A stretch of 64,000 bases of DNA, taken from contig NZ_CP039396.1 of NCBI RefSeq assembly GCF_004803915.1, positions 1,922,001 through 1,986,000 of the forward strand, read 5' to 3'. The notes beneath the pieces are model-generated. The model made no database searches and had not been told where the DNA came from. It was given only the letters and a program-made list of their open reading frames with translations. Made by a program: the position numbers and the translations under genes. The stretch is from Duncaniella dubosii (GTDB lineage: Bacteria > Bacteroidota > Bacteroidia > Bacteroidales > Muribaculaceae). Positions 33,527 through 63,406 of this stretch are shown here, one piece after another; the first letter of the stretch is position 1, and every line of letters starts with the position of its first letter.

Positions 33527-33656
33527 ACAATAGTTCGGTAAAATTTGCATATTCAATTGAATATCAATAAGATGCAATAATAATTCAACATCAATGCAAA
33601 CTATTGTGTATCAGTGCGATACAGCTATGCCTGCTCAAAAATTACCGAACTGTTGT
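33527..33656 (+). mobile_element. 130-bp MITE, copy A
   Basis: A non-coding element with terminal inverted repeats ACAATAGTTCGGTAA and TTACCGAACTGTTGT, flanked by the 5-bp direct repeat ATATG (33522-33526 and 33657-33661). It is about 95% identical to copies at 44347-44475 and 63277-63406. Inside are palindromes ATTCAATTGAAT and GTATC-AGTGC-GATAC. Its ends closely match the ends of the IS4-family element at 42971-44341, the likely source of transposase. The rest of 33195-33757 holds only promoters and A/T-rich spacer. Confidence 0.85.
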
Positions 33657-40198: not shown

Positions 40199-42418
40199 TT
40201 ATTTCAGTTCGAACGGGACTGTGGCACGGATGTCGGTTGACGATGAACCGATATAGGCACGGAATTTGCCGGGTTCGGCTATCCATGAAGCGGTCTTGTC
40301 GTCGTAGAATTTAAGAGCGTCGGGAGTGATTGTGAAATTGACTGTCTTTTCCTCACCGGGAGCGAGCTCAATTTTCTCGAAACCTTTCAGCTCTTTCAGT
40401 GGACGGAGGACAGATGCCTTGTCGTCGCCGATGTAGAGCTGGACTGTTTCTTTACCATCGCGGTCACCGGTGTTTCTGACAGGAATGGTGATGGTGAGAG
40501 ATTCGTCTGAGCCGATGGTCTTGGCCGATGCGACAGGTTTGCCATAATCAAACGATGTATAGCTAAGACCGTGGCCGAATGAATAATGGGCCGGAATCTT
40601 CTTGGTGTCGTGCCAGCGATAGCCGACGAGGATGTCTTCGAGATATTCCTGATTGATTGAGTCGCCGGGGTAGGAGATAGCGCCGAAGCTGTGAGCGCCG
40701 TTGTCTTCAAGTCGGACAGGGAAAGAGAAAGGAAGTTTGCCGGAAGGATTGACCTTTCCGCTGACAACATTGGCTATCGACTTTCCGGCCATCGATCCAA
40801 GATACCACGCCTGTGCGATGGCAGGTACTTTGTCTGCCCACGGCATCTCGACGGCATTGCCGCTCAGCAGGAGGACGATGAGGTTGGGGTTGGCGGCCTG
40901 AAGGGCTTCGATGAGTTCAGGCTGACCGAAGGGGAGGGCATAGCTCTCGCGGTCGCCGGCCTCGCAGTCCTGCTGATGGTTCTTGTTGAGACCACCCACC
41001 ATTATGACAACATCGGCATTCTTGGCCATTGCCACGGCTTCGGCCCGGAGAGAATCCTGAACAGAGGCCGGAATCTGCTCGACATGAGAGTACATCGGTT
41101 TGCCGGCACGGTAGCCCTGTGCATATTTCACCTTATCGCCATAGAGGGCGCGCAGTCCGGCAAGCGGAGTCACGTTGTCCTTGACCTTCAGTTCTGACGA
41201 ACCTCCGCCTTTCATGAGGTCGCGTGTTGCGTTGTCACCGACAACGAGTATCGATTTTACATCAGGTGATAGCGGGAGGAGGGGATTTCCGCCTTTGGCG
41301 ACAGGCGAGTTCTTGAGAAGGACGATGGCTTCGTTGCCGATTTGCTCGGCCACGGCATAATGTTCGGGTGAGGCGACAGAGCCGAGGGGCTTATTGCGTT
41401 TCATGGCTGTCAGGAAGTTGAGACGCAGCATGCGCCGGGCTTTGTCGTCGAGAGTTGACATTGGAAGTTCCCCCTTTTCAAGCATTTCAAGATAGGGGCG
41501 AGCCATGTAATAGTCGTCGGTAGTGAATTCAGATTCAGATGTCAGGCCGTTTGTATATGATCCCATTTCGAGATCCAGCCCGTAGAGCGCGGCTTCCTTA
41601 GTATCGTGCGCGCCACCCCAGTCAGTCATGACCACACCTTTATAGCCCCAGTCTTCTTTGAGGATTTTGTTGAGGAGCATCTCATTGTGGCATGCGTGCT
41701 GGCCACGGATTTTATTGTAGGCACCCATGATGGTCCAGCTGTCGCCGTCGATGACTGCGCTTTTGAATGCCGGGAGGTAGATTTCGTGGAGTGCGCGGTC
41801 GCTTAGATTGACATTGATATGTCCGCGCCAGAGTTCCTGATTGTTGAGAGCGAAATGTTTCACACTCGCGCCGACACCGTTCTGCTGCATTCCTTTGATA
41901 TACGGTACAACGAGAACCGATGCAAGATAGGGGTCTTCGCCCATATATTCGAAATTACGGCCGTTGAGGGGCGTGCGGTAGATGTTGACACCCGGGCCGA
42001 GCATCACGTCCTTCTCGCGATAGAGAGCCTCTTCGCCAAGCGCGTTGCCATATTCGAAAGAAAGAGTAGGATTCCATGTGGCTGCCAGCGCCGTGAGCGC
42101 GGGGAAAGCGGTAATCGAATCGTTGGTGCGGCCTGAATAGCCCCAGTCGTTCCAGTTGATTTCTGCACGCACTCCGTGAGGGCCGTCGCTCATCCACAGG
42201 TCGGGAATGCCGAGTCGCGGAACTCCGGGAGAAGAGAATTTACCCTGTGCGTGTATCATATTGATTTTTTCCTGTGTCGTCATGCGGGATAGGGCATCTT
42301 CAACTCGCTGCTCCATCGGCAGGCTTTCGTCCATATATGCGGGCAATTCCTTTGCCGCGAAGAGGCTCAGTCCCGAAAGCATCATTGGGATTGAGAAAAG
42401 GTAGCGGATAGGTTTCAT
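40199..42418 (-). CDS. GH3 beta-glucosidase-like enzyme (xyloglucan-type locus)
   Basis: The 739-residue protein has a signal peptide (MKPIRYLFSIPMMLSGLSLFA) and both GH3 domains: the N-terminal barrel with the nucleophile Asp266 in GVVMTDWGGAHD and the substrate segment HYALNNQE, then the C-terminal sandwich and a fibronectin-III-like end (GDRDGKETVQLYIGD). GH3 enzymes of this kind remove beta-glucose or xylose from oligosaccharides. In xyloglucan loci of Bacteroides (for example the characterised B. ovatus locus) GH3, GH2 and GH31 act together on xyloglucan oligosaccharides. It is the last gene of the minus-strand GH31-GH2-GH3 set. Confidence 0.93.
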   Translation of the reverse strand: MKPIRYLFSIPMMLSGLSLFAAKELPAYMDESLPMEQRVEDALSRMTTQEKINMIHAQGKFSSPGVPRLGIPDLWMSDGPHGVRAEINWNDWGYSGRTNDSITAFPALTALAATWNPTLSFEYGNALGEEALYREKDVMLGPGVNIYRTPLNGRNFEYMGEDPYLASVLVVPYIKGMQQNGVGASVKHFALNNQELWRGHINVNLSDRALHEIYLPAFKSAVIDGDSWTIMGAYNKIRGQHACHNEMLLNKILKEDWGYKGVVMTDWGGAHDTKEAALYGLDLEMGSYTNGLTSESEFTTDDYYMARPYLEMLEKGELPMSTLDDKARRMLRLNFLTAMKRNKPLGSVASPEHYAVAEQIGNEAIVLLKNSPVAKGGNPLLPLSPDVKSILVVGDNATRDLMKGGGSSELKVKDNVTPLAGLRALYGDKVKYAQGYRAGKPMYSHVEQIPASVQDSLRAEAVAMAKNADVVIMVGGLNKNHQQDCEAGDRESYALPFGQPELIEALQAANPNLIVLLLSGNAVEMPWADKVPAIAQAWYLGSMAGKSIANVVSGKVNPSGKLPFSFPVRLEDNGAHSFGAISYPGDSINQEYLEDILVGYRWHDTKKIPAHYSFGHGLSYTSFDYGKPVASAKTIGSDESLTITIPVRNTGDRDGKETVQLYIGDDKASVLRPLKELKGFEKIELAPGEEKTVNFTITPDALKFYDDKTASWIAEPGKFRAYIGSSSTDIRATVPFELK

Positions 42419-42970
42419 CTCGTTAATATAATTGTTGCTATGGTTGTTTATGTGGTGTTAAAAGGAGTTGATTACGGTTGTGTAGGGCAATAGTCCGGGG
42501 GATGTCGCGCGGACTGTGGCCGGACCTTGAGTGTTGTCGTTGCGTACAATCAGCATCGCTTTTCCGTAGAAAGCTTTACGCTTGTTATCCTTGAACCGTT
42601 CGAGCGATATCGGAGAACCGTTATCCACACCTTCGTTGCGTCCTGAGCCTGTGACATCGAATGTGACAAGATTATCAGCCCAAGGACACAGGTTGCCGTC
42701 TTTGTCAAGAATTTCGACGAGTACGTAGCTGAGGTCGTTGCCGTCAGCCTTGATTGAACTGCGGTCAGGAGTCAGACGTATGCGGTAAGGTTCGCCGGCA
42801 GTCCTGATTTCATCTGTCGCTACAATGCGTCCGTCCTTTCGGCTTACGGCTTTCACAGTTCCGGGTGTGAAGTCTACACGCCATGATGCGTGATATTTGC
42901 CCGGTTCAGGCTTGCGCACACCCTGAGACTCTCCATTGACAAACAGTTCTATTTCATCGGCATTGTTGTA

Positions 42971-44341
42971 ACAATGATTCGGTAAAATTTGAGGTTGTTC
43001 AGCCTAGGCTAAGCCGCTAACTGAGCCAACCGATGATTTATTTTCTGAATTATTTTGAGATGCGGAGATTTTCCGCAAGTCGAAATAATTGTTGAGGCGA
43101 GATAAGATTCAAACATAAGCCGTTTGAACTGTGCTAACGAAAGATCCGGATAATCCTTCCTTATGACCTCCTTGCAGACATTGAGTGCAGTGAAGGAAAG
43201 ATTGAATGCGAAGTCAAGCCGGTCTTTGTCGCGTGTCTGTTGCGACTGGAGTCCTGTAAACTGTTTGGCATCGCGTATGCCGAACTCAATCTGAAAGCGG
43301 GTGCGGTAGAAACCGATGATCTTTTCAGGCCTCATGTCGGTATCGGTAGAGAAGTAAAGAAGAGGCTCTGCGTTTTCAACCGGACAGACCACGATACGGA
43401 TGTCGCGTCTCAATGCCCTCGAATGTACGACCGCCGTGTGACATCGGTTTTTGTTTCCTTTGGAATCCTCATATATGAATGAAGTGAACACGGACATGTC
43501 AAGGTTGGAGAAATCCACTTTCTCTCCATACTTTTTCTTTCTGCCGCGTCTTCGCGGGGCGGAGGAATCCGGTATGGCCAGATACCTCAGATATGAGTTG
43601 GCACGTAATCTCCCGACAAATCGAAATCCCATGCCAATCACTTCATTTACAAACTCATATTTGGAGAAAAAGGCATCGGCAACCAGAATATCCGTCAGTG
43701 AGAGCAGCTCTGTCGCCTTTGACCTGACAAGTGCCACATACCAGTCAAGCATTGACATTTGTTTCTCGGATTCAAGAGTCCTGAAGTTCGGTGACTGGAC
43801 AGCACCGAGCATCACGCATGTATGTTTACTCAGACTTATTGCCCCGATCGCCATTATCTCCAGACCGCGTTTGACACGTTGTGCCACCCCAGACCAGAAA
43901 CGGCCTATGCCATACGTCAGTCTGCCTGCTTTTGAAATGAACGACGGATCGATTGCCACTGCCATGTCATCGGCCGGCCCAAAACAATCCTGCGCCATAC
44001 CTATGTTGACTTTCATCCAGTCTACGGATGTCTTGAAATTGGAGGCAAAGGTCTTGGCTGTACGACCGCCATAGCGCGACAGCCGGGTAAAATTGACTTT
44101 GCCCGGAATCAACGCTACAGTGCGTATTGTTAAAATCAGCCAGTTGAGGAACCTTTTGCTCATCTTGGTTGTAGTATTTTCAAATACCGACTTACACCGA
44201 AAGGTGAAGTCTTTGAGAATCGCCAATACGTTCATGGTATAAGTGTTTTATAATGAACGCTTTGGCGATTCATTTGTATTTGACAATTCGACATATTAAC
44301 TTAAGTTTCAACTACTTCGGTAATTTTTACCGAATCATTGT
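42971..44341 (-). mobile_element. IS4-family insertion sequence, 1371 bp
   Basis: The ends are 17-bp perfect inverted repeats ACAATGATTCGGTAAAA (42971-42987) and its complement (44325-44341). It holds one transposase gene. Its right end lies five bases from MITE copy B; together they occupy one target, bounded by GTA (42968-42970 and 44476-44478). No direct repeat is seen immediately around the IS alone. The terminal repeat differs from the MITE terminal repeat (ACAATAGTTCGGTAA) by only two adjacent bases in the first 15. Confidence 0.88.
43009..44235 (-). CDS. IS4-family transposase (DDE, YREK motif)
   Basis: The 408-residue protein has the DDE residues Asp96 (AIDPSFISK), Asp187 (ILVADAFFSK) and Glu317. 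It also carries the complete IS4 signature Y-x2-R-x3-E-x6-K at Tyr310, Arg313, Glu317, Lys324 (FYRTRFQIEFGIRDAKQ). The frame is intact. It should be able to move the element and perhaps the MITEs that share its ends. It acts on DNA in the cytoplasm. Confidence 0.92.
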   Translation of the reverse strand: MNVLAILKDFTFRCKSVFENTTTKMSKRFLNWLILTIRTVALIPGKVNFTRLSRYGGRTAKTFASNFKTSVDWMKVNIGMAQDCFGPADDMAVAIDPSFISKAGRLTYGIGRFWSGVAQRVKRGLEIMAIGAISLSKHTCVMLGAVQSPNFRTLESEKQMSMLDWYVALVRSKATELLSLTDILVADAFFSKYEFVNEVIGMGFRFVGRLRANSYLRYLAIPDSSAPRRRGRKKKYGEKVDFSNLDMSVFTSFIYEDSKGNKNRCHTAVVHSRALRRDIRIVVCPVENAEPLLYFSTDTDMRPEKIIGFYRTRFQIEFGIRDAKQFTGLQSQQTRDKDRLDFAFNLSFTALNVCKEVIRKDYPDLSLAQFKRLMFESYLASTIISTCGKSPHLKIIQKINHRLAQLAA

Positions 44342-44346
44342 AAAAT

Positions 44347-44475
44347 CAATAGTTCGGTAAAATTTGCATATTCAATTGGATATCAATAAGATACAACAAC
44401 AATTCAATATCAATGCAAACTATTGTGTATCAGTGCGATACAGCTATGCCTGCTCAAAAATTACCGAACTGTTGT
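44347..44475 (+). mobile_element. MITE copy B, joined to the IS4 element in GH2
   Basis: Homologous to copies A and C over its whole length, lacking the first base of the consensus end (TCAATAG in place of ACAATAG). The right end TTACCGAACTGTTGT is complete and is followed by GTA, the target duplication of the compound insertion. It supplies the stop codon of the truncated GH2 frame. Confidence 0.85.
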
Positions 44476-46559
44476 GTAATATGCCCACATGTCAATTTCC
44501 TGACCCTCTTCCCAGTTCCAGTGTGGGAAAAGATGGAGCACATTTTTGTCGGGTCTCCACTGAGACTGATACATATAATATATGTCCTTAGGAATCCCGG
44601 CGAGGTCGACTATGCCGAAATAAGAGCTGCGGGCAGGCCAGCCGAAAGGTGTCGGTTCGCCAAGATAGTCGAACCCGGTCCAGATGAACTGGCCTGAAAT
44701 AAAGTCTTTTTCGTTGACATGTCGCAGCGTCCCTTCGTGAGAATTTCCCCACGGGACATGGCAATTATCATAGGAGGAGCAGGAGAATGAAGGATCTTCA
44801 AAAGGAATGTCCCAGCGCTTGGGCCAGATGAAAAGACTGTCGGACGGCATGCGGTAGTAACCGCGTGTCATAAGTCCCGAAACGCTTTCCGTGATGATGA
44901 ACGGTTTGTCGGGAAACCATCCGGGAACGGAGTCGAACCAGTTGTCGTGGTAATTGTAGCCGATGATGTCGAGAGCGCCGGAGCGGAAAAGGTGGTTGCC
45001 GGGATCAGGCTCATTGCATCCGGCCGTGACCGGTCTTGATGGATCAAGTTCTCTCACCATGTCGGCGAGTTTTTTGGTGAGGAGTGAATTTACGCTCATG
45101 CTGTCGCTTTCGGATGCGAGCATTTCCTTGCCGTGGCCGAAATTGAGTATCAGATTGGCCTGTTCGAGAGATAGAGTGTCGGCTTTGGCATCGCTCCATT
45201 GTTCGAGCACTTCGTTTCCGATGCTCCACATGATGACCGAAGGATGGTTTCGGTCGCGGCGCACAAGGTCGCTCAGGTCTTTTTCGTGCCATTCGGGGAA
45301 ATAGCGTGAATAGTCGTGAGAAGTCTTTTTCTTACGCCACATGTCGAAAGTCTCGTCCATGACAAGTATGCCCATACGGTCGCAGAGGTCGAGGACTTCG
45401 GGAGCGGGAGGATTGTGTGACGCACGATAGGCGTTAGCACCCATTTCCTTAAGAATTTCGAGCTGGCGCTCTATGCCACGTGTATTGACTGCCGCTCCGA
45501 GCGCCCCGAGATCGTGGTGCATACAGACCCCGTTGATTTTCATCGGTTTTCCGTTGAGCGCAAAACCTGTCTTCGGATCGAAACTGAAATATCTTAGTCC
45601 TGTAGTGGTCTGATAGGTGTCAAGAAGCTGACCGGTTTTGACATCGCTGACAAATGTCATCAGAGTATAGAGATAAGGGTCTTCTGTGCTCCATAGATGA
45701 GGCGATTTGATGTTGATGACAGATTTGATTTCGGCATCGCGATGCTTCTTGTCAAGTCTGACGGTCTGAGTCGGACTTTTGCCGATCATTTTGCCAGTCT
45801 CGTCAATCAGCGAGGTATAGACGCTGACAGTCGCTGAGTTTTTTGACTTGCTTACAATTTCAGTGGAGATGTCGATTTGTGCATCATTGTCGGTTACTGT
45901 CGGGGTTGTGACATGCTGTCCCCAGAGCGGAATATGGATATCGCTCAATGTGCGCAGCCATACGTTGCGATAGATGCCGCATCCGCTATACCAACGTGAA
46001 TTGGGCTGCTCGGCATTGTCGACACGCACGGCAATCACATTTTCGCCGTCCTGATTAAGCCACGGTGTGATGTCGTAGCTGAACGAGGCATAGCCGTATG
46101 GCCTTGTGCCGAGTTCATGTCCATTGATGAAAACGGTCGAGTTCATGTATGCGCCGTCAAAATCGATAAAGATGTTTTTGCCGCGTTGTTCAGGCGTGAG
46201 TGTGAATGTCTTGCGATACCATCCGATTCCGCCGGGTAGAGCGCCACCGCCTGTGCCTGACGGGTTATCTTTGCTGAAGTCGCCCTCGATAGCCCAGTCA
46301 TGGGGGAGTGAAAGGCTGCGCCATGATGAATCGTCAAATTCCGGTTTTGCCATTTCAGGAGAGTCGGCGAGTGTGAAGCGCCATCCGTCATTAAAGCTGA
46401 GCGAGCGAGAATCGGCTGCGGCAGCTGAAAAAATGGCCGCCCCGCCAATCCAGACGAGGCAGGCCATTAAAATCAAATTTACCTTAGATAACATGACCTA
46501 TTGTGAGTCAGTGACTAAAAAATGGTATGAGGTTAGATATTGGTTTGAAAAAAGTGCGA

Positions 46560-49436
46560 TTAGAGTTTAACAGTTTTCGCAGTTCCGTTATAGGCCACTT
46601 CCACACCTTTGTTTTCACGTCCATAACCGACCGGATGGTCTTTTGAAACCTTGATAATGTTGAATCGACGGTTACGGAGCATACCGGGATACTGACCTGC
46701 GCGTTCCCCGATTGTCAGAGTCTGCTTTTCGTCATTCCACTTGAACGGTATGACTGCGTAATTGCCTTTTTCATAGTTGTAGTTGACGTTTTCATCTTCA
46801 TAGAGGACGAATTCACCGTTTTCTCCGGCATAGACATACAGATTGATTATGTCGGCCGGTTTTTCATCGCTCCACTGCATAGCCGGGCCGAAAGGAATGA
46901 TCGAGCCGGAGCGCACGTAGAGAGGGATGCGTTCGTAGGGTGCTGCTACGCTAAGGCGCTGGCCTCCGTTGATTTCCTTGCCGGTATAGAAGTCATACCA
47001 GTCAGAACCTGCCGGGAAATATACTTCGCGCGAAGTAGCACCATAGTTGTAGACCGGGGCTACGAGGAAGGCCGGACCAAACATGTATTGGTCTCCGATG
47101 GAGCGCGTAGCCTTGTCGGCTGTGAAATCCATGACCATCGGGCGCATGATAGTGTAGTCATTAAAGTGGGTCATTCCTGCGAGTGAATATAGATAGGGCA
47201 TCATGTCATAACGCAGGTTGATGTAGTAGACCACAGACTTATAGGCCGGATGATTCTCAGGGGCGATGTTGAAGATCTCGCGGTAAGGCCATTGTCCGTG
47301 TGCGCGGAACATCGGTGCGAACGCTCCGAACTGATACCAGCGTGTGTTGAGTTCGCGCCATTCCTTCATGTCAGGAGTTTCTTTTCCTGTCTTGAGATAT
47401 TCTTTTGCGGCTGCTACGTAACGGTCCTCGACACAGAATCCGCCGATGTCCATACTCCACCAAGGAATTCCGGATGCCGCGAAATTAAGACCGGCTGAAA
47501 TCTGGGCTTTCATGTCTTCCCAGCGGGTAGCTATGTCGCCGCTCCATGTCGCTGTCGAGTAGCGCTGCTGTCCTGCAAAACCAGAGCGGGTAAGGAGGAA
47601 AACACGGTCGTCGTTAGTTTCGCGCTGTCCGTCGTAGATGGCTTCGGCGTTCATGAGACCGTAAGCGTTGAAATATTTTGTTGACGGCCCAAGTGCGGTC
47701 GGGGTTATGAGGTCTTTGCGATACTGAAGGTCGGTGCAGTCACGGATGTTTGGCTCTGAAGCGTCCATCCACCATGCGTCGATTCCTAAGGGAACATAAT
47801 GGTCTTTCATCTGATTCCAGAACAGTTTGCGTGCGTCGGGGTCGTAGGCATCATAAAATGAGCTGAGATAGCCCGGGCCAACCCAGTCCTTGATGCTGTC
47901 CTGAACAGGGAGTTTATACATCCACCCGTTCTTGTCGAATTCCTTGTAGTGTTCGGTTGTCACGTAGAATTTCGGCCATACGGAAATCATCACGTGTCCG
48001 TGCATGTCGTGAATAGAATCTACCATACCTTTCGGATCTGGGAAACGGTCACGGTCAAACTCGTGGCTTCCCCATGAATCCTGCTTCCAGTGTAGCCAGT
48101 CGATGACAATATTATCAATCGGGATGTTGCGTTTGCGGAATTCAGCGAGAGTGGAGAGCACCTCTTCCTGCGTGTTGTATTTTTCACGGCTTTGCCAGTA
48201 GCCCATCACCCATTTGGCCATGATGGGAGCTTTGCCGGTGAGGGTACGGTAGCCGCTTATAACGTCGTCCATGTCCTCTCCATATATAAAGTAGTAGTCA
48301 ATCTGGTCTTGCATTTCACCCCACCAGCTCATGTCGAGCTGTTTTTTGTCGTCGACAGGAGAATAGACACGCAGACCGCAATAGGCAACAGCGCCATTTG
48401 GTTTCCATTCGATTTTCAGAGGCACGCGTTTGTCTTTTTCAAGATTGACGGAAAATTTATAGGAATTGGGATTCCATGCCGTGCGCCAGCGTTCAGGCAC
48501 GACTTCTTTGCCGTCGACAAAGACAGATATGTAGCCTGAATAATAGAGTATGAATTTGAATTCACCGCTTTCCGACGGCTCGATTTCACCTTCATAGGTC
48601 ACGTGTGATCCATAGTAGTTGAAATCCTGAGGTAGATTTACCACATGTTTCAGTTCCTTTCGGATGAGGTGTTCGAAATAGATGGAGTCTTCACGCTGCA
48701 CAATGGTCTGCTCTTCCACTTTAGCAGGCACATAAGTGCCTGTAAGCGCACCTCCCTTACCGTCTTTGTCATAGAGCTTGAACACCTGTCCGAGCTGTTT
48801 ATAGGGGGCAGGATTGCCAAAACGGCAGAGCGAATAGCTGTCCCAAAGGATGCCATAGTTGTCGGTGGAGACGACAAACGGAACAGAAACTTTCGTATTG
48901 TACTGGAAAAGTTCTTCGTTCAATCCTTTATAGTTGAACTCGTCGCTCTGATGCTGTCCGAGGCCATAGATGCCTTCTTCGTCGTTGAGCGATTCAAAAA
49001 CCTGACGGACGGTGTAGCCTTTTGTCCCTTCGACCTCGATTGGAGAGAATGAGCGGCCGCCTTCGGCTTCCGAAACGATCAGCTTGCCGTTTCTGTCATA
49101 AAATTTAACATCGCCGGTTGAAAGTGACACTGTGGCTGTAACCGCAGAAGTGATGACAGAGAGGGTCGAGTCAGTTTCCGAGACAGTATATTCTGTGTTC
49201 TCTTTTTGCGGTACGGTTACAAGGCTGTTGTCGGGTGCGAATTTTTTATCAGGGGTTGCCGAGACACGGATAATCTTGTCATCCATGACCTGCAGACGAA
49301 CTTTTCTGACTGAATTTTCACCTGTCGGTGTGACGTTGACGGTTATTCCATGCTCCGATTTCTCATATTTTCCCGGATTACAGGCCATAGACATGACTCC
49401 GGCGAGAATCGAGGCTGATAAAACTTTTAGTTTCAT
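46560..49436 (-). CDS. GH31 alpha-xylosidase with PA14 insert
   Basis: The 958-residue lipoprotein (Cys19, GVMSMAC) has a GH31 N-terminal sandwich interrupted by a PA14-like domain (about 220-370: VTYEGEIEPSESGEFKFILYYSGYISVFVDGKEV), then the barrel with nucleophile Asp558 (WWMDASEPN) and acid/base Asp634 (WSGDIATRW), then C-terminal domains. This layout matches characterised xyloglucan alpha-xylosidases with PA14 inserts. It releases xylose from xyloglucan oligosaccharides. It is the first gene of the minus-strand enzyme set, and has its own -7 box. Confidence 0.95.
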   Translation of the reverse strand: MKLKVLSASILAGVMSMACNPGKYEKSEHGITVNVTPTGENSVRKVRLQVMDDKIIRVSATPDKKFAPDNSLVTVPQKENTEYTVSETDSTLSVITSAVTATVSLSTGDVKFYDRNGKLIVSEAEGGRSFSPIEVEGTKGYTVRQVFESLNDEEGIYGLGQHQSDEFNYKGLNEELFQYNTKVSVPFVVSTDNYGILWDSYSLCRFGNPAPYKQLGQVFKLYDKDGKGGALTGTYVPAKVEEQTIVQREDSIYFEHLIRKELKHVVNLPQDFNYYGSHVTYEGEIEPSESGEFKFILYYSGYISVFVDGKEVVPERWRTAWNPNSYKFSVNLEKDKRVPLKIEWKPNGAVAYCGLRVYSPVDDKKQLDMSWWGEMQDQIDYYFIYGEDMDDVISGYRTLTGKAPIMAKWVMGYWQSREKYNTQEEVLSTLAEFRKRNIPIDNIVIDWLHWKQDSWGSHEFDRDRFPDPKGMVDSIHDMHGHVMISVWPKFYVTTEHYKEFDKNGWMYKLPVQDSIKDWVGPGYLSSFYDAYDPDARKLFWNQMKDHYVPLGIDAWWMDASEPNIRDCTDLQYRKDLITPTALGPSTKYFNAYGLMNAEAIYDGQRETNDDRVFLLTRSGFAGQQRYSTATWSGDIATRWEDMKAQISAGLNFAASGIPWWSMDIGGFCVEDRYVAAAKEYLKTGKETPDMKEWRELNTRWYQFGAFAPMFRAHGQWPYREIFNIAPENHPAYKSVVYYINLRYDMMPYLYSLAGMTHFNDYTIMRPMVMDFTADKATRSIGDQYMFGPAFLVAPVYNYGATSREVYFPAGSDWYDFYTGKEINGGQRLSVAAPYERIPLYVRSGSIIPFGPAMQWSDEKPADIINLYVYAGENGEFVLYEDENVNYNYEKGNYAVIPFKWNDEKQTLTIGERAGQYPGMLRNRRFNIIKVSKDHPVGYGRENKGVEVAYNGTAKTVKL

Positions 49437-62182: not shown

Positions 62183-63291
62183 GTATGTATAGAATGTTTT
62201 ATGTCAGCCTTCTTTGCCTGTTGTCATATATCAATCTTAATGGACAGACCGTACACTTTGTATCAATGTTTGATACGAAGGATACAAAGCTCGGCTCAGG
62301 AATGGCGTATGAATGTGCCATGATAAACAATGAGTTTCAGACGATTGCTGGATATCTGGAAGATTTCGGTTTCGATAGTGAGATATCGGAGTATACAGGA
62401 GATAATTGCGGGAAAACACAATTGCTCACTGCGATAAATGGATTAGAGATTGCACCTGAAGATGTCGTATTGTTTTATTATGGCGGGCATGGTGGCCGTC
62501 CGGTAAATAGTACGGACAGTTTTCCTCAGATGTGTCTCGGACATCAAAATCAAGAAAATTTTGTTCCGGCTACTTTGATTAGAAATATTATAGAAAGTAA
62601 AAATCCTCAACTGACAATTGTAATAACTGGATGTTGTAACAGTGAGAGTCGAGGGATAAGTATTAAAAGTGTAGTAGCCCAATCACAGGGATATACAAGT
62701 GAGGGGAGTATCGATAAATCAAGGTACAAAAATCTGTTTACGGATTTTAAGGGTGTGATACAGTTTACGAGTAGCCGGCCAGGAGAATATTCATTTGCTG
62801 GAAATACTGGGAGCTGGTTTGCAGCGAACCTGCTTAATGTAATAGACGATATTGGTCGTGGAAAGGTTGGTGCGGATTGGAAATCGTTATGTGAGGAAGT
62901 TGGAAGGCGTGTTAGTGAAGAGGAGATTATTTTCGAAGGACAGAAATATCGAATGCACCCATACGCAGAAATAAAAACAACTTCTATTTCCGGAGATGGA
63001 AATAATGATAAGAAGTCGCATGACGGTAGTGTAAGGAAACGAGTAAACGATGATGACTATAACCTGATTGCTGAGATTAACGCTCTTCTTGACAAATCAA
63101 AAAGTAGGGAGCAACGTTTATGTCTTATTCCTTCTATTTTAGAAAAGCATTTTAATTATGGTGCTAAAGTCATTACTTTAGGTCGTGACATGGCAACTGT
63201 TGTAGACTACGAAGATGCGGATGTTTTTTTGAAAAGAATAACGATGTCGCCATATATCTCACAGATTAATATAGTAACAACAGTTCGGTAA
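62179..63291 (+). CDS. Exported caspase-like (C14) peptidase, C-terminus replaced by a MITE
   Basis: The 370-residue protein has a signal peptide (about 1-23, ending NLNGQ), then a caspase/metacaspase-like domain: the beta-strand VVLFYYGGHGGR with catalytic His104, and IVITGCCNSE with Cys152/Cys153 (by alignment with the D-x-C-x-S form, Cys153 is the likely nucleophile). MITE copy C begins at 63277 and supplies the last codons and stop (VTTVR). Excising the MITE and one AGTA copy gives a 384-residue protein ending KNSLITVHEVRTR. The gene is AT-rich and coupled to the lipoprotein gene upstream. Function unknown; such proteins are secreted and may process surface or competitor proteins, which is inference. 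Confidence 0.8.
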   Translation: MSMYRMFYVSLLCLLSYINLNGQTVHFVSMFDTKDTKLGSGMAYECAMINNEFQTIAGYLEDFGFDSEISEYTGDNCGKTQLLTAINGLEIAPEDVVLFYYGGHGGRPVNSTDSFPQMCLGHQNQENFVPATLIRNIIESKNPQLTIVITGCCNSESRGISIKSVVAQSQGYTSEGSIDKSRYKNLFTDFKGVIQFTSSRPGEYSFAGNTGSWFAANLLNVIDDIGRGKVGADWKSLCEEVGRRVSEEEIIFEGQKYRMHPYAEIKTTSISGDGNNDKKSHDGSVRKRVNDDDYNLIAEINALLDKSKSREQRLCLIPSILEKHFNYGAKVITLGRDMATVVDYEDADVFLKRITMSPYISQINIVTTVR

Positions 63292-63406
63292 TTTTTGAGC
63301 AGGCATAGCTGTATCGCACTGATACACAATAGTTTGCATCGATATTGAATTGTTGTTGTATCTTATTGATATTCAATTGAATATGCAAATTTTACCGAAC
63401 TATTGT
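63277..63406 (-). mobile_element. 130-bp MITE, copy C (reverse orientation)
   Basis: Reverse-complement copy with ends ACAACAGTTCGGTAA (63277-63291) and TTACCGAACTATTGT (63392-63406), flanked by the direct repeat AGTA (63273-63276 and 63407-63410). It interrupts the end of the caspase-like gene. Confidence 0.85.

Follow-up and report, generated by a model that had tools for sequence, protein, structure and literature searches.

Tn10 is a composite transposon of the kind built from IS10 or IS50 insertion sequences (IS). Tn5 is also named as a composite transposon (PMC10969869), and in the excerpts available of the papers cited here TIME-COMPs are bounded by two miniature inverted-repeat transposable elements (MITEs) (PMC4133298, PMC13367494), MITEAba12 lies between two IS in Tn6645 (PMC6382973), and MITE-flanked integrons hold their cargo between two MITEs (PMC6382973, PMC10969869). 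A tandem ISPsy19/MITEPsy1 insertion and IS-MITE neighbours are described in Pseudomonas syringae (PMC3189936). No unit made of one IS and one MITE with hybrid ends was recognised among the listed matches from the open-licence literature, as far as its excerpts go, the composites found there consisting of two IS or of two MITEs. Here we analysed a stretch of 64,000 nucleotides from the gut bacterium Duncaniella dubosii (genome G000, 3.69 Mb in 5 contigs with a main contig of 3.6 Mb; positions C1:1922001-1986000, the whole of which is called the window), in which an IS, a short linker and a MITE lie between the two pieces of a GH2 glycosidase gene. The reading of this insert as a compound transposon is well supported, and the best joint explanation, to which we assign a probability of roughly 0.88, is that it moved through hybrid ends and that the pair was born by re-use of a target.

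The limits of both elements were set at CAA...TTG because the base just outside them varies among the copies compared. So delimited, the compound unit in GH2 measures 1503 bp (IS of 1369 bp, linker of 6 bp, MITE of 128 bp), and a single TGTAA duplication encloses the three parts together (Table 1), without any duplication at the inner ends. Indeed, the IS in GH2 is flanked by TTGTAA on the left and by TAAAAT on the right, which have TAA alone in common. The outer pair of tips consists of the left end of the IS and the right end of the MITE, which differ at 3 of their first 14 bases and at 5 of their first 20 (15/20 alike); the left tips of the IS and of the MITE differ at 2 of 20 bases. An earlier, sequence-only reading of the window had described GH2 as broken by an IS-linker-MITE insert with matching outer flanks, and this description stands, as does its start of the MITE. 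Several of its details are revised: the insert has 1503 bp and not 1505 bp, the IS limits and the MITE end are now those of Table 1, the linker of five bases becomes TAAAAT once the tips are set at CAA/TTG, and the proposed duplication GTA is replaced, with the same placement of the tips, by TGTAA, of which it is the inner part. The two differences that it had counted between the outer tips are those found between the left tips of the two elements. Its joined gene was reproduced, removal of the insert together with one TGTAA leaving 2529 bp that encode 842 residues with one terminal stop.

The same unit is present a second time in the genome, 151 kb away, at C1:1813860-1815364 (locus L021; IS 1813860-1815230, MITE 1815236-1815364). 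Exactly 1505 bp are shared without a difference by the two copies, whose flanks differ on both sides; this length comprises the 1503-bp unit and, at either end, one further base that matches by chance. With the same linker and the same MITE orientation occurring twice, independent formation is not credible, and the unit has thus moved as a whole on at least one occasion. The D. dubosii genome contains 7 near-full copies of the IS among 11 matches, two of the 7 lying inside the compound units, and 19 matches of the MITE. The IS of the unit differs from its nearest single copies (L022, L023) at 12 alignment positions, and none of the 7 is a closer sister to it. A rare base of the MITE in the unit occurs in 3 of the 19 copies, the third being a lone MITE (L001, C1:3220920-3221047) with the duplication TCATGA; given this copy, the MITE may also have joined the pair, or departed from it, on its own.

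Comparison with other species of the genus reveals the GH2 site in its empty state. A protein search gave GH2 matches in 26 of the 27 genus genomes, with E values up to 1e-80 (the own genome and paralogues are counted), and the 12 orthologous rows L149-L160 have open frames of 842-888 aa. The site was aligned in 13 of the 15 orthologue-like rows (L149-L160 and L175, from 13 genomes), leaving out L174, for which the match stops short of the site at query residue 579, and L161, which is the upstream half of the same gene of G054. In all 13 the site is single and free of the insert, reading TGTAG, TATAG or TGTAA. These orthologues, at about 70-81% nucleotide identity, belong to other species and alone leave room for a brief MITE stage within D. 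dubosii. Taken together, the identical second unit and the empty orthologous sites, both of which the sequence-only reading had proposed to look for, support its view that the IS and the MITE moved together by means of one IS end and one MITE end. Two observations that it had named as contrary evidence were not made: none of the 13 aligned orthologues has a lone MITE at the site, and at GH2 the IS lacks a separate 5-bp duplication.

As to the mechanism, a strong case can be made that the IS transposase used the stop-codon-side end of the IS and the distal MITE end as a pair and moved all that lies between, the two inner ends being passed over in the joint move. At an earlier stage, for which the case is of moderate strength and built by analogy with the tandems of another genome described below, the second element, either the IS or the MITE, would have inserted into the 5-7-bp duplication of the first to give t-IS-t-MITE-t with t = TAAAAT, the middle t of which would be the present linker. 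TAAAAT is thus likely a target duplication that has persisted, as a fossil, from a previous tandem insertion.

Such a mechanism involves both kinds of ends, and one transposase probably serves both the IS and the MITE, judging from the sequences of their tips and targets. Target duplications were counted over 72 distinct insertions (26 IS, 46 MITE) in G000 and its relatives. Five loci repeating the same places, both G000 units (4 halves) and 7 loci without an end pair in the size range are not part of this count; 12 loci from a set of 80 loci are, as are 3 members of the G043 tandems and one MITE row that is maybe a chance end pair (L297). Duplications of 5-6 bp were found at 19 of the 26 IS (18/25 without the G043 tandem members) and duplications of 5-7 bp at 40 of the 46 MITEs (38/44), the rest being shorter or absent. 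At chance level, left and right flanks of different insertions agree over at least 5 bp in 65 of 5112 mismatched pairs (1.3%). The pooled IS and MITE sites display one AT-rich palindromic pattern, roughly TNTN-TWATWA-NANA, and such a common pattern is what one enzyme would give. In G000, every exact CAAYAGTTCGGTAA site among the matches listed is at an end of one of the 19 MITE matches, which leaves this IS as the only driver candidate seen in that genome. The small element has the properties of a MITE of this IS group, namely a length of 128 bp, 19 matches, IS-like tips and a similar duplication length. Moreover, some relatives of the IS carry a MITE-type tip on the stop-codon side, either CAATAGTTCGG (L036, L037, L038, L039, L041) or CAACAGTTCGG (L043), and on the start-codon side the tip CAATGATTCGG, which is exact in L037, L038 and L043, has one mismatch in L039 and L041, and falls outside the sequence in L036. 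The end of L037 equals the first 20 bases of the left side of the MITE. As such IS relatives have a MITE-type tip at one end, mixed end pairs are natural.

The proposed origin of the pair has a counterpart in G043, a genome from another genus, where one fully resolved arrangement reads TAATAA-MITE-TAATAA-IS-TAATAA and a second reads IS-TATAA-MITE-TATAA, its contig ending inside the IS. In both, the linker equals the flanking duplications (L035/L311 and L092/L318), and the two tandems differ from each other and from the GH2 unit in the choice of ends that face one another. Most simply, one element would have landed precisely in the duplication adjoining the other. We regard it as an even bet that re-use of target duplications is a recurrent route to new IS-MITE compound transposons, in which the pair spreads self-sufficiently and the linker stays behind as a fossil. 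An alternative that concerns the origin only, and that we consider equally balanced between true and false, is that such re-use is the plain result of a strong target-sequence preference, with no attraction to the resident copy. A target model was built from 16 five-bp and 33 six-bp sites, with the G043 tandems excluded; for the 13 MITEs and 25 IS ends of G043 it predicts 0.003-0.025 tandems from target sequence alone versus 2 seen, which is a modest excess for a small model. An assumed tenfold intergenic preference raises the expectation to 0.03-0.25, and the probability of 2 or more tandems ranges from 6e-6 to 0.026 across both cases, the highest value belonging to the expectation of 0.25. 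The L035 target ranks within the top 0.02% of window positions in the model, although it is bordered on one side by an element tip. A strong target preference may suffice for tandems.

Several observations weigh against the compound-transposon reading. That the transposase acts on both end types is something we infer from sequence, and other IS relatives (e.g. L031, L040, L044) carry CAATGATTCGG at both ends. The presumed founding arrangement TAAAAT-IS-TAAAAT-MITE-TAAAAT does not occur at any of the G000 copies of the IS or the MITE whose flanks were compared. A search for any two exact tips placed tail to head, 2-12 bp apart, recovered tandems in only 2 of the 397 genomes of the family (G000, G043), and two narrower searches inside the same 397 genomes (1/14; 2/117) again returned G000 and G043; as many assemblies break at IS copies and may hide pairs, this rarity is not established. 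The unit at L021 is without a flanking duplication (left ...ATTTTA, right TTGGCT), so that the single duplication around the whole is seen at GH2 and not at the second copy, and its left flank, read outward from the IS, is TAAAAT, i.e. the linker in inverted sense. L021 may have been rearranged after insertion, and duplications shorter than 5 bp also occur at 7 of the 26 IS and 6 of the 46 MITE insertions. The inverted TAAAAT would not be given by a single transposition and is read as a coincidence between AT-rich sites.

Two other accounts of L021 were considered. One intramolecular transposition as the source of its inverted TAAAAT flanks was dropped by reasoning, since such an event would leave t on one side and its complement on the other, and a role as founding locus was rejected, its flanks ATTTTA and TTGGCT fitting neither TAAAAT-IS-TAAAAT-MITE-TAAAAT nor a fresh insertion. 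Regarding an orthologous empty site for L021, no listed match joined both flanks among at most 11 scored candidates in each of the 27 genus genomes; what the query did match were copies of the IS and of the MITE, the receptor gene downstream, and short stretches. The unit at L021 is located upstream of a 220-aa open reading frame (ORF) that is lipoprotein-like by eye (L145 9195-9861; C1:1813194-1813860), within a few bases of its start codon, and a transposase-like ORF (409 aa, by eye) is found nearby, at L145 14599-15828. Concerning spread, the MITE is present at E < 1e-50 in 8 of the 397 family genomes and matches more weakly in 3 others; viral contigs contained no match to the exact 28-base junction, and plasmids none to the unit (near mode).

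Three further explanations dispense with a joint transposition. Homologous recombination or gene conversion, acting on shared IS or MITE sequence, might have copied the unit between the two loci, the 7 near-full IS and 19 MITE matches serving as substrates, and recombination can also cause the lack of a duplication at L021. Conversion needs homology on both outer sides, however, and the identity of the two copies stops at most one base from the outer tips; in addition, the TGTAA duplication at GH2 is backed by the orthologues. We therefore rejected such copying, the identity ending at the tips, and consider it very improbable. A stepwise history without joint movement, in which the MITE was resident in GH2 and the IS landed in or beside its first bases, or in which the order was the reverse, is slightly less probable still. 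It draws on the fact that tandem IS-MITE insertion does occur (twice in G043) and on the TAA that the left IS flank at GH2 and the linker have in common. A stepwise insertion at GH2 predicts the linker TGTAA, as the linker equals the flank in G043, whereas the actual linker is TAAAAT; moreover, the linker and both elements recur identically at L021, and no MITE occupies the site in the 13 aligned orthologues from other species. The simple stepwise form is refuted by the mismatch between linker and flank. The alternative that the sequence-only reading had kept, an IS landing in a resident MITE, is abandoned on similar grounds, namely a linker that recurs elsewhere and an IS without its own 5-bp duplication. 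Least probable of all is an assembly artefact in which, the unit being repeated, one copy received its interior from the other: the identity of the copies over 1505 bp is judged from the assembly, but the local GH2 junctions (TGTAA-IS tip and MITE tip-TGTAA) already require hybrid ends and one shared duplication, and the genome is assembled into 5 contigs, the main one of 3.6 Mb. The compound transposon with hybrid ends is thus the explanation we retain.

The family placement of the IS was derived from its transposase and its duplications. D96, D187 and E317 are invariant in an alignment of 11 sequences, the two Asp residues being putative catalytic residues by position, and the YREK motif is complete (Y310-x2-R313-x3-E317-x6-K324) and invariant in the same alignment. 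The protein passes the Pfam models DDE_Tnp_1 and DDE_5 and reaches the cut-off of none of the 8 NCBIfam models listed, the best being IS701_3 (NF049999) with 114 bits vs. 170; the three NCBIfam IS4 models give 36-46 bits vs. cut-offs of 115-250. Its predicted fold (mean pLDDT, the predicted local distance difference test score, of 81.3) best matches Tn5 transposase structures (E 3e-11, template modelling score 0.60 on the query); a search of solved structures by sequence matched none. According to the excerpts of PMC2266710, IS4 proper combines a complete YREK with duplications of about 10 bp, and IS1634 has duplications of 5-6 bp and a YREK that is not complete. The present IS shares YREK and the DDE triad with IS4 and lacks the duplications of about 10 bp, 19 of 26 being 5-6 bp and 7 shorter or absent. 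It shares the AT-rich 5-6-bp duplications with IS1634 and departs from it by its complete YREK and its length of 1369 bp vs. 1500-2000 bp. IS701 does not fit either, the expected duplications of 4 bp being mostly 5-6 bp here and the model score being below the cut-off. A complete YREK with 5-6-bp duplications thus makes the element IS4-related, with a full fit to neither IS4 proper nor IS1634 as defined in the excerpts; its earlier attribution to the IS4 family holds in the wide sense (YREK, Tn5-like predicted fold) and not with regard to duplication length. Another copy of the IS, L026 (C1:1987894-1989253), just past the window, has transposase matches in two overlapping, frameshift-like pieces and no 5-bp duplication.

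Table 1. Positions, in window coordinates, of the compound unit, the interrupted GH2 gene and the other MITE copies.
Feature	Position	Strand	Remarks
GH2 3' part	42458..42966	minus	end of DUF4982 and GH2 C-terminal domain 5; listed ORF begins at GTG 42919
Left target duplication TGTAA, 5 bp	42967..42971		single copy at the site in 13/13 aligned orthologues
IS, 1369 bp	42972..44340	minus	inverted tips CAATGATTCGGTAA
Transposase ORF, 408 aa	43009..44235	minus	uninterrupted
Linker TAAAAT, 6 bp	44341..44346		the same in the two units of G000
MITE copy B, 128 bp	44347..44474	plus	tips CAATAGTTCGG and CAACAGTTCGG
Right target duplication TGTAA, 5 bp	44475..44479		
GH2 5' part, 677 aa	44461..46494	minus	GH2 domains up to TIM barrel; frame enters MITE tip and stops there
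MITE copy A (L016)	33528..33655	plus	alone; duplication TATATGA
MITE copy C (L007)	63278..63405	minus	alone; duplication TAGTAA

The insertion cuts the GH2 frame at residue 677, compared with 842 residues in the joined gene. The gene sits between a 739-aa ORF and a 958-aa ORF, all on the minus strand (window 40199-49436), in an arrangement like a carbohydrate-use cluster; by appearance, the 739-aa ORF is GH3-like and the 958-aa ORF GH31-like. Two kinds of smaller elements related to the IS were also observed. Elements of 31 bp, consisting of two IS tips back to back, occur in different genomes (L136, G000 C1:1534106-1534136; L282, G130; L076 2666-2696), and the flanks of L136, CCAGTCTA and TAGACTGG, are themselves inverted repeats. 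Elements of 91 bp contain the stop-side end of the IS in inverted duplicate (L126, G000 C1:835398-835488; L283, G130 C2:373723-373813), with inverted ends that are near-perfect in L283 and diverged in L126, and represent a second kind of miniature derivative.

If the proposed history is true, both of its stages are visible in related genomes, i.e. the formation of a tandem by a shared duplicated target and the tandem then moving as one. A MITE, usually seen as a passive relic, could then replace one end of the IS that drives it, which bears on how IS and MITEs could pick up the DNA between them.

In comparison with known systems, the unit resembles the composites of the IS10/IS50 type in that one transposase would serve two elements, pair the outer ends and bypass the inner ones, and in that the duplication around the whole is single. 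It differs from them in that its arms are not two copies of the same IS but one IS and one MITE, with unlike tips, no passenger gene and only a 6-bp linker between them. With the TIME-COMPs, as represented in the excerpts of PMC4133298 and PMC13367494, it shares the use of MITE ends as outer ends of a larger moving unit and duplications of 5 bp, whereas the TIME-COMPs have two Tn3-family MITEs with a transposase acting in trans and one arm of the present unit is an IS coding for its own IS4-like transposase. Tn6645 and the MITE-flanked integrons likewise have MITEs in composite structures, yet in the excerpts of PMC6382973 an IS end paired to a MITE end occurs in neither. In P. syringae, an IS also adjoins a MITE, and the MITE has tips almost identical to those of an IS of that genome; the excerpts of PMC3189936, on the other hand, report neither re-used duplications nor joint movement. 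As regards the enzyme, the complete YREK and the Tn5-like predicted fold place the IS beside the IS4-related families, and its duplications of 5-6 bp, compared with about 10 bp in IS4 proper, are as in IS1634 (PMC2266710, excerpts).

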